A stretch of 64,000 bases of DNA from Thermococcus alcaliphilus (GTDB taxonomy: Archaea; Methanobacteriota_B; Thermococci; Thermococcales; Thermococcaceae), in NCBI RefSeq assembly GCF_024054535.1, contig NZ_JAMXLV010000014.1, positions 1-64,000 of the forward strand, read 5' to 3'. This document shows, piece after piece, positions 17,641 through 38,388 of this stretch (positions within the stretch are counted from its first letter, which is position 1; each line of letters begins with the position of its first letter). The notes beneath the pieces were generated by a model. That model was not told where the DNA came from and searched no databases. It saw only the letters and a program-made list of their open reading frames with translations. Both the position numbers and the translations under genes were made by a program.

Positions 17641-18559
17641 CATTAAAGAGAGATAAGGATTTATTGGAACCAAGTAGTTTGTTCAAGTTCATGAGTTGCC
17701 TCAAGAAGCCGTTTACTTTCAATTCTTCTAAAGTCTTATTGGAACCGGTATTCGTTGCAGTTCCCCCAAATCCTCCAATTTCCACAACTTTCAATTCTTC
17801 TAAAGTCTTATTGGAACATATCCAGAATACTTATTCAAATTATGTCCAAATCCTCTTTCAATTCTTCTAAAGTCTTATTGGAACGGGCGGCAAGCTCACA
17901 ACGTCAAAGGGAGGCATTATTTAGGCTTTCAATTCTTCTAAAGTCTTATTGGAACAATTTCTTTAAGATGTGCAAAATTCCTTCAGCAGCGCTTTCAATT
18001 CTTCTAAAGTCTTATTGGAACTAGAATTCTCACTCACCCAGTTTACGGACTCTTGGGGCTTTCAATTCTTCTAAAGTCTTATTGGAACCCTATGTCGTCA
18101 GGAGTTATGTGCCCAAGGATGTCATTCTTTCAATTCTTCTAAAGTCTTATTGGAACTCAAGAAGTATGAGGAGGAGGGAGACATTGACAAGACTTTCAAT
18201 TCTTCTAAAGTCTTATTGGAACTTGAGTTCTTCAACAACCTCGACAGCTTTGAGATGTATGCTTTCAATTCTTCTAAAGTCTTATTGGAACCAGCCGTGT
18301 TAATCAAACCACCATAAAAGCCCACCGCCTTTCAATTCTTCTAAAGTCTTATTGGAACCTTCCTCATTCTCCCACCTCTCGTACTCCTTCACAAAGCTTT
18401 CAATTCTTCTAAAGTCTTATTGGAACACCCCTTACATCTTTCCGCTAGTTCTTGGTAGCCTTGCTTTCAATTCTTCTAAAGTCTTATTGGAACGTGCTCT
18501 ATCCAATCAAGGGCTTCCTTACGACCTCTCTTTCAATTCTTCTAAAGTCTTATTGGAAC
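17641..18559 (-). CRISPR. CRISPR array, 13 intact 30-base repeats plus one degenerate
   Basis: Thirteen identical repeats begin at 17716, 17788, 17855, 17926, 17992, 18059, 18127, 18193, 18262, 18329, 18397, 18464 and 18530, each 30 bases. The minus-strand form begins GTTCCAATAAGAC and ends AGAATTGAAAG, so crRNAs would carry the AUUGAAAG 5' tag known in Pyrococcus. Spacers are 36-42 bases. A fourteenth, decayed unit at 17641-17670 keeps only the TTATTGGAAC end and is preceded by a 45-base spacer; a decayed terminal repeat marks the end far from the leader. No cas gene occurs in the window, so processing must come from elsewhere. Confidence 0.98.
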
Positions 18560-29852: not shown

Positions 29853-30914
29853 ATGCCAATGATATCAATAATAGTCCCTACATACAATGAGCGGGAAAAC
29901 TTGGAGGAGCTGTTTGAACGGATAGCGAAAGCTTTAGAAGGAAAGGAGTTTGAAATAATAATTGTGGATGACGATTCTCCGGACAGAACTTGGGAAAAGG
30001 CGAAAGAGCTTGCAAAAAAATATCCCGTAAAGGTTATAAGGAGAACAGACGAGAGAGGGCTTTCTTCTGCTGTTATTCGGGGTTTCGAAGAGGCGAGGGG
30101 AGAGATCTTTGTGGTTATGGATGCTGACCTGCAACACCCCCCAGAAGTTATCCCTGAGTTGATTAAAGCTATTGAGAGTGGGGCCGATATAGCTATAGCG
30201 AGCAGATATGTGAGAGGAGGAAAAGTTGAAAATTGGTACTGGTGGAGAAAACTCATCTCAAAAGGAGCAATAATGATAGGCAGAGTTGCTCTGCCAAAGA
30301 TAAGGGGGATTAGAGATCCTGTGAGCGGGTTTTTTGCCCTTAAGAGAGAAGTTGTTGAGGGAGTTGAACTCAATCCAGTGGGCTTCAAAATCCTTCTTGA
30401 GATACTTATAAAGGGCAGATATTCAAAAGTCGTGGAGATTCCCTTTACATTCGGGTTAAGAAGTTCGGGAGAAAGTAAGTTAAGCAACAAGCAAATACTG
30501 AACTATCTACGCCATCTTTACAGGCTCATGAAATGGGAGGGGGAGATAGACAGGCTTGTTAAATTCTCCATAGTTGGTTTAAGCGGCATTGTTGTAAATG
30601 AAGGCTCTCTTCTTGGCTTTGTGGAATTTTTAGGGTGGGACAAGAGGATAGCGGTAATCCCAGCGACTGAGCTTTCCATACTGAACAATTTTATATGGAA
30701 TGACCTCTGGACGTTTAGGGATCTAAAGAGAAAGCCGATTCACATACGCTTACTAAACTTTCATCTTGCCGCACTTACAGGAGCTTTAGTTCAGTGGAGC
30801 TTCTATCTAATTCTTTTGTATCTGGGTGTTCATTACCTAATAGCCAATCTCTTTGGCATAGGAGCCTCTTTCATTGTTAGGTTTCTCTTCAATCGGAACA
30901 TCACATGGGCATGA
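29853..30914 (+). CDS. Dolichol-phosphate mannose synthase with GtrA domain
   Basis: A 353-residue protein very like the structurally known Pyrococcus furiosus DPMS. The GT2 catalytic domain (about 1-230) has IIVPTYNERENLEELF, the nucleotide/metal residues IIVDDDSPDRTW, MDADLQHPPEVIPELI and GLRSSGESKLS. Four C-terminal GtrA-type helices (about 235-350) form the membrane anchor. It transfers mannose from GDP-mannose to dolichol phosphate for N-glycan and lipid glycosylation. A TATA box GATATAAAT lies at 29821-29829, giving a short leader with GGTGAAGG. It ends normally at ITWA, just before a hairpin-rich segment. Confidence 0.93.
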   Translation: MPMISIIVPTYNERENLEELFERIAKALEGKEFEIIIVDDDSPDRTWEKAKELAKKYPVKVIRRTDERGLSSAVIRGFEEARGEIFVVMDADLQHPPEVIPELIKAIESGADIAIASRYVRGGKVENWYWWRKLISKGAIMIGRVALPKIRGIRDPVSGFFALKREVVEGVELNPVGFKILLEILIKGRYSKVVEIPFTFGLRSSGESKLSNKQILNYLRHLYRLMKWEGEIDRLVKFSIVGLSGIVVNEGSLLGFVEFLGWDKRIAVIPATELSILNNFIWNDLWTFRDLKRKPIHIRLLNFHLAALTGALVQWSFYLILLYLGVHYLIANLFGIGASFIVRFLFNRNITWA

Positions 30915-31260
30915 CCTCCTTCCTGCCTTTAGCGAGAGGTTAAGCCGAATCCTCACCAAAGGCGGGAAGGTTTACGGGCAACTCATTCCCTACTCCCGTT
31001 GCCGGTTTCGGTTCGGCCCGAGGGCACGGTCTTGTGCCCGTTACCCCTACCGCAAAGCGGATTGGGGTTATCGTTTTGACAACCTTCTTCAGTTTTTGAC
31101 TGCCCGAGAGGACAATTTTTTGAAGGACGCCTTACGGCGTCCACTCCCCTTCAAGCTGAAGGGGGCACTTAAACTCCTCGTCTCATCGGGTTCTAAGTTT
31201 GGCCTTTTCAAGCTCTTATTACTCTGCAAAGTTTAAAAGAGTTTCGGTTCTTTAAAGGTT
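30915..31260 (-). other. GC-rich hairpin-dense non-coding segment, possible IS200/IS605-type relic
   Basis: No gene of normal appearance lies here, but six stems do: 30918-30930/30958-30970 (13 bases, one mismatch), 30977-30982/30998-31003, 31022-31027/31034-31039, 31043-31068 (two-part stem), 31125-31131/31136-31142 (minus-strand loop GTAA, a GNRA tetraloop) and 31146-31153/31157-31164 (CCCCTTCA arms). GC is clearly higher than in neighbours. On the minus strand, about 60 codons are open from near 31130 to a stop after PVNLPAFGEDSA at about 30940, which might be a transposase tail. A remnant or miniature IS200/IS605 element with omega-RNA-like hairpins, or a standalone structured RNA, are the options. 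Conserved motifs of RNase P and SRP RNA are not seen. Confidence 0.4.
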
Positions 31261-31318
31261 GCCCTTCAATTACTGCATCCCCCCTAAAGGGCAGGTTTTC
31301 AGAGAGAAAAATGTAAAG

Positions 31319-32529: not shown

Positions 32530-34215
32530 ATGAAAGAGCTCTTGAAAGAAGCCGAAGTTTTTAACCCGGAGAATGTTTTGGGATATATCTCCGAGATAAG
32601 CAAGTTTCATAGAATCCAAGGGTCCAAGGAGCTGGTTGAAGCTGCCAGATACATAACCGAGGAATTAAGAATAAATGGCATAAAAGCAGAACTGCTTGAG
32701 GATTCTTATGACGGGGAGAAATGGCACTTAACCCTTTCCTCTCCAATAGCATGGGATCTAATTTACGGGGAAGTTGAGATCGCTGGAAGGAGAATAACGA
32801 CCTCTAAAACTCCCCTTCTTGTGATGGCGCACTCGCCACCGGGAGAAGCCGAGGGGGAAGCCATAGCAATAGAGAGGGAGGAAGACTGGGAGAATGCAAA
32901 GGGCAAGATAGTTATTGTGAGTGAGAAATGGCATGAAAACTACAGAAAAGCGAATGAAAAAGGAGCCCTTGCGTTTATAGCTTACAGAAAGGGAATGGGC
33001 AAGGCCTTCCCTTACATCGGACTATTTTTGACCAAGAGGGACTTAAAATGGGCAAAAATTCCCGCAGTTGCTTTAAGCGAAGAGATTGCAAACACTATTA
33101 TTCAGAAATTGAAGAAGGGTGAAAAGGTAACGGCAAAAATCAAGGTTGACACTTTAATCTCTGAGAGTCAAGTTCTTCCAATTGTTTACGCAAAGGTGGG
33201 AAAGCCACCGTATGTTCTGTTCACAGCTCACATATGCCATCCAAAGCCAGGCGCAAACGACAATGCAAGCGGAGCAGCAACGCTGATTGAGCTGGCTAAA
33301 GCACTTAATACTCTTTACGATGATTCATTTCGGTTTGGCTTTGCTTTTCTCTGGATTCCAGAGCATTATGGAACGCAGGCTTTTATAGAGAAATATGCAA
33401 AGCTCGATGATTACTACGTGGCAATAAACCTTGACATGGTTGGGGGAAGTGAAGACAGAGCTAACTCAACGATAATGATAATTAGAACGCCATTATCAAG
33501 ATTTTCAATTGTTTCCGGAATTCTCGAGTATTTCATTGGCCTCGCGAATTCCGAAGGAGAGAGCTTTGGGGGAAGTTCTCTGCCAAAAATGAAGGCTAAA
33601 AGCTATCCTTATGAGCTTGGAAGCGATCATGATGTATTCAACTTCTTTGGAATTCCAAGCGTAATGCCCATAACCTGGCCTGACAGGTTTTATCACTCAA
33701 GCGAGGACAGTGTTGAGAAGATAAGCAAAGAAAGCCTTGAAATAATAGGGAGAGCAGTATTGGCAACTGCATTAGCCCTTGCAAAAGGAAAGAAAGAGGA
33801 GCTTGAGAGATTCGCCAGAGGTTTTACAATGAAGTACCTTGGAGAGCTCAGCATTGAAAGGGATCTCGAAGTGGCAGAAAAGTTGGTTATGCTTGGGCTG
33901 TCGAGGGATTCTAAGTTCCTAGGGCTAAACATGGGACACGAGTTTACTTTTGAACCTTGGCTAAAGTGGAAGAAAAAGGGCATTATTTATCCAAGATCTA
34001 TAAAGCAGATTGACGAGAAGAAGGGGGAGGAGCTTGGAAAAATATTGGAAGATAGGAAAATGGGTGTCTTGCTCCATGAGCTATTAATGCTGGGGGAGAT
34101 AATGCCAAAAGAAGAGGCATTCAAAGCTCTGGAAGAGGAGTACGGGAAGTTTGAGAAAGAAAAGCTTGAGAAAGCGGTTGAGATATTAAGATCTTTAGAT
34201 ATCATCGTTTTTTAG
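32530..34215 (+). CDS. M28-family aminopeptidase (DUF4910-like)
   Basis: A 561-residue peptidase. A PA-like insertion (about residues 85-200) interrupts the M28 domain, whose metal ligands are visible in TAHICHPKPGANDNASGAAT, the catalytic Glu in WIPEHYGTQAF, the Asp in INLDMVGGSED and the final His in GSDHDVFNFFGIPS. The C-terminal 140 residues form a helical, probably winged-helix-like extension. No signal peptide is present, so it probably acts on cytoplasmic peptides. The ATG at 32530 follows GGTGTTATC; the GTG at 32521 is part of that site. It overlaps the convergent regulator gene by 21 bases. Confidence 0.87.
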   Translation: MKELLKEAEVFNPENVLGYISEISKFHRIQGSKELVEAARYITEELRINGIKAELLEDSYDGEKWHLTLSSPIAWDLIYGEVEIAGRRITTSKTPLLVMAHSPPGEAEGEAIAIEREEDWENAKGKIVIVSEKWHENYRKANEKGALAFIAYRKGMGKAFPYIGLFLTKRDLKWAKIPAVALSEEIANTIIQKLKKGEKVTAKIKVDTLISESQVLPIVYAKVGKPPYVLFTAHICHPKPGANDNASGAATLIELAKALNTLYDDSFRFGFAFLWIPEHYGTQAFIEKYAKLDDYYVAINLDMVGGSEDRANSTIMIIRTPLSRFSIVSGILEYFIGLANSEGESFGGSSLPKMKAKSYPYELGSDHDVFNFFGIPSVMPITWPDRFYHSSEDSVEKISKESLEIIGRAVLATALALAKGKKEELERFARGFTMKYLGELSIERDLEVAEKLVMLGLSRDSKFLGLNMGHEFTFEPWLKWKKKGIIYPRSIKQIDEKKGEELGKILEDRKMGVLLHELLMLGEIMPKEEAFKALEEEYGKFEKEKLEKAVEILRSLDIIVF

Positions 34216-36621: not shown

Positions 36622-38364
36622 ATGATAGACAAGCTCCTGTCGATAGATAGCGGTGAACTCATTCAGAGAGCACTGGAAGATGCAAAGGCTCTGGAGGAGT
36701 TAACTAAGTTAGTGAACTCTTCAGAGTACTCGGTTAAGGTAAGGGCACTACAAGTGCTAAGTGAAATTATACCCAAATTGCCTGCAGAGAAACGCCGATC
36801 GATTCTTGATATTCTCTTATCATCCCTTCTTGAAAACCTCTTTGATGAAAATAGAAGGGTTCAAGAATTGAGTTTGAGGGTTTTATCGGCTTTAATAACG
36901 GAAGTCTCTCTATTTCCTGAAGAGGCATTGGAAATTTTAAAAGCAGTAAGCATTCCTCGGTTGCTTGAAGACGACTTTGTGTTTCTTGGATTTGTGGAAA
37001 TTTTTAAACGGCTGAAATTCATCAAATACCATCCCTCAGTACTAACCACCCTTAATGAGATGACTCTCTCTAAGGACGAAAGAATAAGGGTTCTGGGAGT
37101 ATGGGGATTGTGGAGGCTTCTTAATTCCGTCGTTATGGGGGTTCAAGCTGCTGAAATTTTGGAAAAAATAATATCAAAGATACCTTCTCTGATGGAGAGC
37201 CTTGATGAAACCGTGGTAGAAGTCACGCTCCAGCTTGTTAAGGAAATTGTTGCAAAATACAGGGATTCAGGGAATATTATACGGAGGGTTATCCCTTGGA
37301 TAAAAGAAATGAAAGAGCTCAAAAAATCGGGAAGCTGGCTGATAAGAAGTGAACTTGAAAATGCAATTCAGTATTTATCGGAGGTTGTGAGAGATTACTA
37401 CAGTAAGAGAATAAACGAGGCCTTAAAATTGCTTGAAGAGCTTGTAGAGCAAGAGAAATACGAGGATGCACTTTTCATAGCTGGATTAATAGGGAATGAT
37501 GACATACTCAGGTGGATCTCTCAAAAGATAAACCTTTCAAAGAAAAGGGAAGTAATTGATGAGCTTCCGAGAATCGTAAGAGGGCCAAAATATGCCACTC
37601 TTCCCCTTAATCTGCAAGAGAAGACACTGTACATACCAAGTTTAGGCTCACTCACAATAAGAAGAAGAAAAATAAGTGGAGAAAATGAAGAAAAAGAAAT
37701 TGGATTTTCTGAGAGAAGTGACAAAGTCAATGAGAGCTCAAAAATTCCGGGTGGAGCAAAGATTCTGGAGAAATTAAGAAGTACTGACCCTACAGAAGTT
37801 ATAGATGGAATATGGGAATTGTATGAACTCTCAAAGAACATAACGCCCGAAAATGTAGAAGGGTTTCTTATCTTTGTACCAGAGTTGATTAGGATATTCT
37901 CATCTTCCCGCAATGAATGGGTAGTGGATAAAGTGAGCATGATACTGGCAAAGATTTTAGCATACTCCTCCTCTAGGAGTTACTTATCCCTCATATTGAA
38001 CTTTCTCGTTTTGGAAGGAAGAGAAAAAATCAAGGCCATGAGGTTTTTCAAATACTACTTTTCTTACAAGTGGGATAAAGAGGCATGGGCCATTGTCTGG
38101 GAAAAGTTGAAAGAACTGCTTATGGATAAAAATACTTCTATTGAGGTATTAGGTATGCTCAACAACCTTGTCGATGTTATTCCCAGGGAAGAAAAAGATG
38201 TTTTGGAGAAGATAAACGAAGTTTTAGAGAATTTGAAAATCGAGAAACCAGGAGAGCTTCAAGAAGGGGTAAACCTGCTTAAGGAAAAAATAAATAAAAA
38301 GTTAAAAGAGGAAATGTCCAAACATAAAAACGGAATGATGAGTCTGGAGCCCCCTGATTGGTGA
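36622..38364 (+). CDS. HEAT-repeat-like alpha-solenoid protein
   Basis: About 580 residues of amphipathic helices arranged as HEAT/ARM-like pairs (for example VKVRALQVLSEIIPKL, EDDFVFLGFVEIFKRL, RIRVLGVWGLWRLL). A charged linker near residues 330-385 separates two solenoid blocks. No catalytic motif or membrane helix is present. A TATA box GTTTATAAAAAG at 36594-36605 puts the transcript start near 36620, so the frame opening at 36586 cannot be wholly translated; ATG 36622, or 36610, is likely. It is followed 24 bases later by a small coiled-coil gene, a probable partner. Role unknown, probably scaffolding. Confidence 0.72.
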   Translation: MIDKLLSIDSGELIQRALEDAKALEELTKLVNSSEYSVKVRALQVLSEIIPKLPAEKRRSILDILLSSLLENLFDENRRVQELSLRVLSALITEVSLFPEEALEILKAVSIPRLLEDDFVFLGFVEIFKRLKFIKYHPSVLTTLNEMTLSKDERIRVLGVWGLWRLLNSVVMGVQAAEILEKIISKIPSLMESLDETVVEVTLQLVKEIVAKYRDSGNIIRRVIPWIKEMKELKKSGSWLIRSELENAIQYLSEVVRDYYSKRINEALKLLEELVEQEKYEDALFIAGLIGNDDILRWISQKINLSKKREVIDELPRIVRGPKYATLPLNLQEKTLYIPSLGSLTIRRRKISGENEEKEIGFSERSDKVNESSKIPGGAKILEKLRSTDPTEVIDGIWELYELSKNITPENVEGFLIFVPELIRIFSSSRNEWVVDKVSMILAKILAYSSSRSYLSLILNFLVLEGREKIKAMRFFKYYFSYKWDKEAWAIVWEKLKELLMDKNTSIEVLGMLNNLVDVIPREEKDVLEKINEVLENLKIEKPGELQEGVNLLKEKINKKLKEEMSKHKNGMMSLEPPDW

Positions 38365-38388
38365 GGAAGTTTCGCGGGGCTGACCGCA

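Follow-up and report, generated by a model that had tools for sequence, protein, structure and literature searches.

We analysed a 64,000-nucleotide stretch of the Thermococcus alcaliphilus genome (contig NZ_JAMXLV010000014.1, positions 1 to 64,000; hereafter, the window), in which a hairpin-rich segment adjoins a host gene with glycosyl transferase 2 plus GtrA/DPMS domains (Pfam; 29853-30914, plus strand). A preliminary description had placed six strong stems at 30915-31260 and proposed an IS200/IS605 remnant or miniature derivative whose right end encodes an RNA resembling the omega RNA of TnpB. The feature proved larger, a 402-bp element that runs on the minus strand from its left end (31312) to its right end (30911), combines transposon ends with an omega RNA and has lost its protein genes.

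The strong stems are present. The minus-strand fold reaches -133 kcal/mol (z = -5.75), a value equalled by 0 of 100 shuffles, and the plus-strand fold is weaker (z = -4.33). GC content is 54-55% at 30900-31200 versus ~38-49% in most flanking 200-base windows, so that the segment is locally GC-rich as described, although not richer than everything around it, since 32700-32899 reaches 51%. The reported GNRA loop also exists in the window copy, within the stem GGACGCC-GUAA-GGCGUCC (31142..31125, minus strand). Among copies, GUAA, GUGA or GAGA occupies this loop in about one third and GUUA forms the largest group; given this lack of conservation, we rejected a functional GNRA receptor and regard the loop as incidental. 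No Rfam family covers the segment at gathering or permissive thresholds, and weak matches to mir-511, SmY and CRISPR-DR36 were dismissed as chance. Neither a search of viral contigs with translated 30983-31144 (minus strand) nor a search of plasmid records returned a match.

The element recurs widely with fixed ends. Further copies in this genome lie on contig C19 (90%) and on contig C16 at 77 kb (74%) and 41 kb, and 44 of 101 related genomes contain matches, all 44 from the same family. A profile grown from the window copy recovered ~54 full-length copies with fixed ends. Left ends mostly follow TTAC (31313-31316 in the window, just outside the element) and begin N-TTTTTC, and right ends consist of GGAGGTCA followed by G in the copies and by T in the window copy. 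Inspection of the genome G007, whose DPMS-type protein is 94% identical to that of the window, reveals an uninserted site, GGGC|GTAA; in the window the element separates this GGGC from the GTAA. Likewise, the joined flanks of a tnpB-bearing element of the window's genome align to genome G003 over 220 of 220 bases, gapless. Because of these two uninserted sites, we conclude that TTAC is single, that there is no target duplication, and that the last base of the tip (TCAN) is owned by the element. An uninserted site for the 77-kb copy on C16 was sought and not found. A fixed short target beside the left end without target-site duplication identifies the insertion mode as that of IS200/IS605.

In G007 the host gene ends GCG TAA at the codon where the window has an element-borne TGA. 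The right tip TCA, read as TGA on the other strand (30912-30914), replaces the host TAA stop in frame when the element lands at NNG|TAA, GTAA being TTAC in reverse orientation. Stop replacement is similar at L040, L010, L036, L143, L124 and L127, and insertions adjoining an open frame of at least 100 codons fall in the stop-replacing frame 14 times, versus 5 and 5 in the others (raw counts). The element may thus often insert at stop codons and leave the gene unharmed. Stubs of apparently the same insertion are found downstream of the DPMS gene at L113 (genome G006) and L114 (genome G002), each with a right tip TGACC joined to a left end and the CTCTCTGAAA variant. The G007 site is clean although its DPMS protein is more similar than those at L113 and L114; precise excision, replacement or independent insertion are possible explanations.

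Both ends of the miniature are common to complete TnpA-TnpB elements of IS605 type in the same genus. The left end (31265-31312), with a subterminal palindrome at about 31279-31295, matches the left ends of a TnpB element on contig C22 of this genome and of the TnpA-TnpB elements in G002, and the right-end palindrome and tip (30912-30972) close on a tip GGAGGTCA that is the same in nearly all copies and in the TnpA-TnpB elements. The subterminal palindromes at both ends are thereby shared with an autonomous, TnpA-encoding element. Five TnpA-TnpB elements in G002 give identical match scores and have the same tips at different TTAC sites. The C22 element, which the miniature matches at the left end, the 3' end and the tip, encodes an intact TnpB of 435 amino acids (aa; PF01385, PF07282). 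Both RuvC aspartates are kept in this 435-aa family (L040, L123-L163), the RuvC-II glutamate is absent from its usual place (VVGYPKGI), and a conserved glutamate lies in EAFTSK in 24 of 24 aligned TnpB proteins, as if the active site were rearranged; we take this to be the 'rearranged' type of RuvC site. At L039 (G000:C24:109.8-111.3 kb), a left end of the miniature's family lies ~1 kb from a frame for a different TnpB-like protein of 462 aa, whose match to the 435-aa family is short and N-terminal; a nested or chimeric element is possible there.

The minus-strand open tail ending PAFGEDSA, suggested earlier as a possible tnpB end, is real and comprises 50 codons plus stop (30940-31092). Pfam returned no match to it, and because the tail is short and poorly conserved it was compared directly with TnpB. 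The window sequence LKKVVKTITP...PAFGEDSA* aligns in frame with the TnpB C-terminus LKKAVKTITP...PSLARG*, which identifies it as a decayed remnant of the tnpB C-terminus. Stops or shifts interrupt this frame in most other miniatures, and it is therefore no longer a protein. Taken with the ends, the tail marks the 402-bp feature as an internally deleted IS200/IS605 transposon. The 402 bp hold no open reading frame (ORF) for a Y1 (HUH) transposase TnpA and none was detected in the genome, so the element is a derivative and not an autonomous member of IS200/IS605.

The covariance model of the RNA, R1, derives from 37 copies, all of them miniature (protein-less). All 26 tnpB loci of the 435-aa family that were tested have an R1 match at their 3' end, full length to the right tip (E about 1e-22 to 1e-37); the RNA thus lies at the 3' end of tnpB and stops where the transposon does. 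R1 also matches 24 of 25 further tnpB loci from Thermococcus, Thermococcaceae and Thermococci records, some of which may repeat earlier genomes. Against L038, L039 and L041, the remaining three tnpB genes of this genome, R1 gave only a short end-palindrome match. By this correspondence the right half of the element is the omega RNA of TnpB, as had been proposed, with its scaffold at 30912-31075 (minus strand).

Covariation indicates that the secondary structure is conserved, both in the miniatures alone and with the tnpB-borne RNAs. In a MAFFT alignment of the miniatures alone that was not fitted to the model, paired cells make up 96.4%, 61 cells differ on both sides (18.5 in shuffles), and covariation scores 0.262 versus 0.147 for shuffles and at most 0.073 for slid controls. 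Because the structure was derived from this same alignment, the comparison with slid controls is biased in its favour; the comparison with shuffles of letters within pairs is free of that bias. With tnpB-borne RNAs added, in an alignment fitted to the model, the score is 0.367 versus 0.136. A GACC in the loop of the hairpin at 31022-31039 (31028-31031) can, by prediction, pair with GGUC at the scaffold 3' end (30913-30916) as in the known TnpB pseudoknot. Standard pairs are found in 99.7% of cells; one side is invariant, there are no double changes, and variation is from A-U to G-U only.

The preliminary description had suggested searching for recurrence at other loci with conserved ends and covariance modelling, and would have been undone by a segment that is single-copy everywhere, lacks covariation and matches neither TnpB nor insertion-sequence ends. 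Instead, the segment recurs at many loci, its helices covary, and it matches both. The deleted IS200/IS605 element was correctly anticipated; the idea of a one-off remnant gives way to one copy of an old, separately evolving family.

Phylogenetic analysis of the RNA places 49 miniatures on one side of a branch with support of 100/99.8, and a single clade for all 52 miniatures is not rejected by the approximately unbiased test (p-AU 0.47). An origin of the main family by recurrent deletion of local tnpB elements was rejected, since the 49 group in a single clade. Three G002 miniatures (L091-L093) sit among tnpB-borne RNAs in the tree, and are possibly independent, younger deletions of tnpB elements. 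A leader of hairpins (31076-31214; 31146-31164, 31125-31142 and others) is common to the miniatures and contains covarying pairs in the leader alignment; blastn of the leader region against the tnpB elements of this genome gave no match. Upstream lies a promoter-like motif CCGAAACTCTTTTAAA (31232-31247) of B recognition element (BRE)/TATA type, conserved as CCGAAA...TTTTAAA at a mean of 1.37 bits per column versus about 0.6 in both flanks, with a counterpart before tnpA or tnpB in intact elements. In genome G110, copies 95-99% identical occupy different sites, which indicates that the family moved recently. That is to say, one clade with compensatory changes despite a mostly broken frame argues that this is a long-lived, mobile family of stand-alone omega RNAs and not fresh debris.

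The distribution of the RNA was compared with that of TnpB across 71 Thermococcaceae genomes. The RNA is present in 58 of these, and by rough count 425 omega-RNA matches stand beside 232 for TnpB. Genomes with the RNA tend to be those with TnpB (both, RNA only, TnpB only, neither: 51/7/1/12; p = 5e-8, an optimistic value because the genomes are related). Nuclease-less copies with ends and omega RNA thus occur in genomes that hold the nuclease elsewhere, and the window's genome (G000) contains five omega-RNA loci and one intact TnpB of the 435-aa family.

These results make it highly probable that the window holds a non-autonomous IS200/IS605 element that retains its DNA ends, a left-end promoter-like site and a right-end omega RNA, with the adjoining host bases presumably serving as guide. 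Transcription would begin at the left-end promoter-like site, near 31210 on the minus strand, and continue across the leader hairpins and the scaffold as far as host DNA. The miniature RNA would then be processed and bound in trans by a TnpB of this family whose gene lies elsewhere. The predicted guide, the host bases beyond the right end (30891-30910, minus strand; GCCCATGTGATGTTCCG), is antisense to the end of the DPMS gene, and its first 17 bases are identical to the uninserted allele of G007 directly after TTAC, as the published ISDra2 model requires of a TnpB guide. That model has the donor joint cut and then repaired from the copy still carrying the element (PMC8612924). By analogy, host bases would guide TnpB to the uninserted allele (TTAC plus guide), and cutting there would lead to repair that copies the element back, or to removal of chromosomes without the element. 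Movement would need TnpA in trans, which is present in related genomes and not in this genome today. We infer both the mobilisation by TnpA and the use by TnpB from sequence. The element looks like a free-riding guide-RNA gene copying itself around archaeal genomes, whose RNA an intact TnpB elsewhere in the cell could use. We lean, with somewhat better than even confidence, towards the broader proposal that the protein-less lineage across several Thermococcaceae genera is an independent guide-RNA family, a satellite of an RNA-guided transposon that depends on TnpA for movement and TnpB for retention, with its own promoter and leader and a fresh guide at each insertion site.

Were the miniature instead a plain miniature inverted-repeat or palindrome-associated transposable element (MITE/PATE), only its DNA ends would matter, TnpA would move it in trans, and the omega-RNA sequence would be passive baggage inside the right end. 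Ends suffice for TnpA, the right-end palindrome overlaps the scaffold, and Halanaerobium has a comparable PATE-like element that includes a tnpB tail and the right end (PMC7290912). We nonetheless consider passive baggage improbable, given compensatory changes in internal helices far from the end palindrome within the miniature clade, the retention of the predicted pseudoknot and promoter-like motif, and an RNA whose presence follows TnpB. Covariation, together with recent copies and a single clade apart from the tnpB-borne RNAs, also argues against a dead, functionless remnant left by decay of a local tnpB element. Such decay would fit a tnpB frame broken in most copies, the TCAT tip of the window copy, and related genomes G002 and G006 with only stubs at the same site, yet it would be true at most for the window copy alone, not for the family, and we rate it as very unlikely. 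Strong folding and the lack of a covering Rfam family might also suggest an unrelated structured RNA gene or riboswitch-like element merely adjoining the DPMS gene; transposon ends, unrelated genomic sites and a location at the 3' end of nearly every tnpB gene of the family that was tested contradict this and leave it practically no probability.

Several observations nevertheless weigh against the preferred interpretation of a non-autonomous element with a functional omega RNA. The window copy ends in TCAT where the usual tip is TCAG, and may itself be immobile because of it. Selection acting on hairpins of single-stranded DNA could account for part of the covariation in a mobile family. In seven genomes the RNA occurs without a TnpB match at 1e-30. 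A Y1 transposase (PF01797) was looked for in this genome and not found, and one is present in only 18 of the 71 family genomes.

Elsewhere, the window contains an array of clustered regularly interspaced short palindromic repeats (CRISPR) with 13 repeats of the Rfam CRISPR-DR6 type (17716-18559, minus strand) and the C/D box guide RNA sR23 (38333-38385, plus strand).

Stand-alone omega RNAs split the guide from the nuclease, and in Thermococcus this split is natural, numerous and recently mobile, beside few intact TnpB genes. Thermococcus is a genus with genetic tools, in which it is testable whether one TnpB serves many scattered guides in trans and whether that keeps transposons in place. 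Separation of guide and nuclease has also been proposed for the origin of trans-activating CRISPR RNAs (tracrRNAs) and CRISPR arrays (PMC10097598).

Searches of the open-access literature returned no description of this archaeal family. IS608-type IS605 elements have a TTAC target and a TCAA tip. The Thermococcus elements resemble them in having TTAC beside the left end, a TCAN right tip and no target duplication, and differ in the tip itself (TCAG; TCAT in the window copy) and in having no transposase in the miniature. As in IS200/IS605 TnpB omega RNA, or right-end element RNA (reRNA), for example that of ISDra2 (PMC8612924, PMC10097598), the RNA overlaps with the 3' end of tnpB and stops at the right tip, with host bases in guide position. 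A hairpin loop predicted to pair with the scaffold 3' end is a further likeness, ISDra2 omega RNA having the same kind of pseudoknot (PMC10097598). Unlike that of ISDra2, the Thermococcus RNA is also abundant without tnpB, has its own leader hairpins, lies in elements with a TTAC rather than a TTGAT target, and has a predicted role in TnpB binding and cleavage. The PATE-like IS605 element of Halanaerobium hydrogeniformans (PMC7290912) likewise comprises a left end, the last part of tnpB and a whole right end with no intact ORF; in contrast to the multi-copy, covarying clade described here, it is single-copy and was published before omega RNA was known. That single element is one precedent; protein-less omega-RNA elements are already known as the Fanzor ghost loci of the fungus Spizellomyces punctatus, nuclease-less loci whose RNAs work with Fanzor in trans (PMC10432273). 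Like those ghost loci, the Thermococcus miniatures have transposon ends and an omega RNA without a nuclease gene, outnumber nuclease loci and form a separate sequence clade, although they are archaeal and TnpB-linked with IS605-type TTAC/TCAN ends. By analogy, the miniature would work like a trans-acting source of omega RNA.
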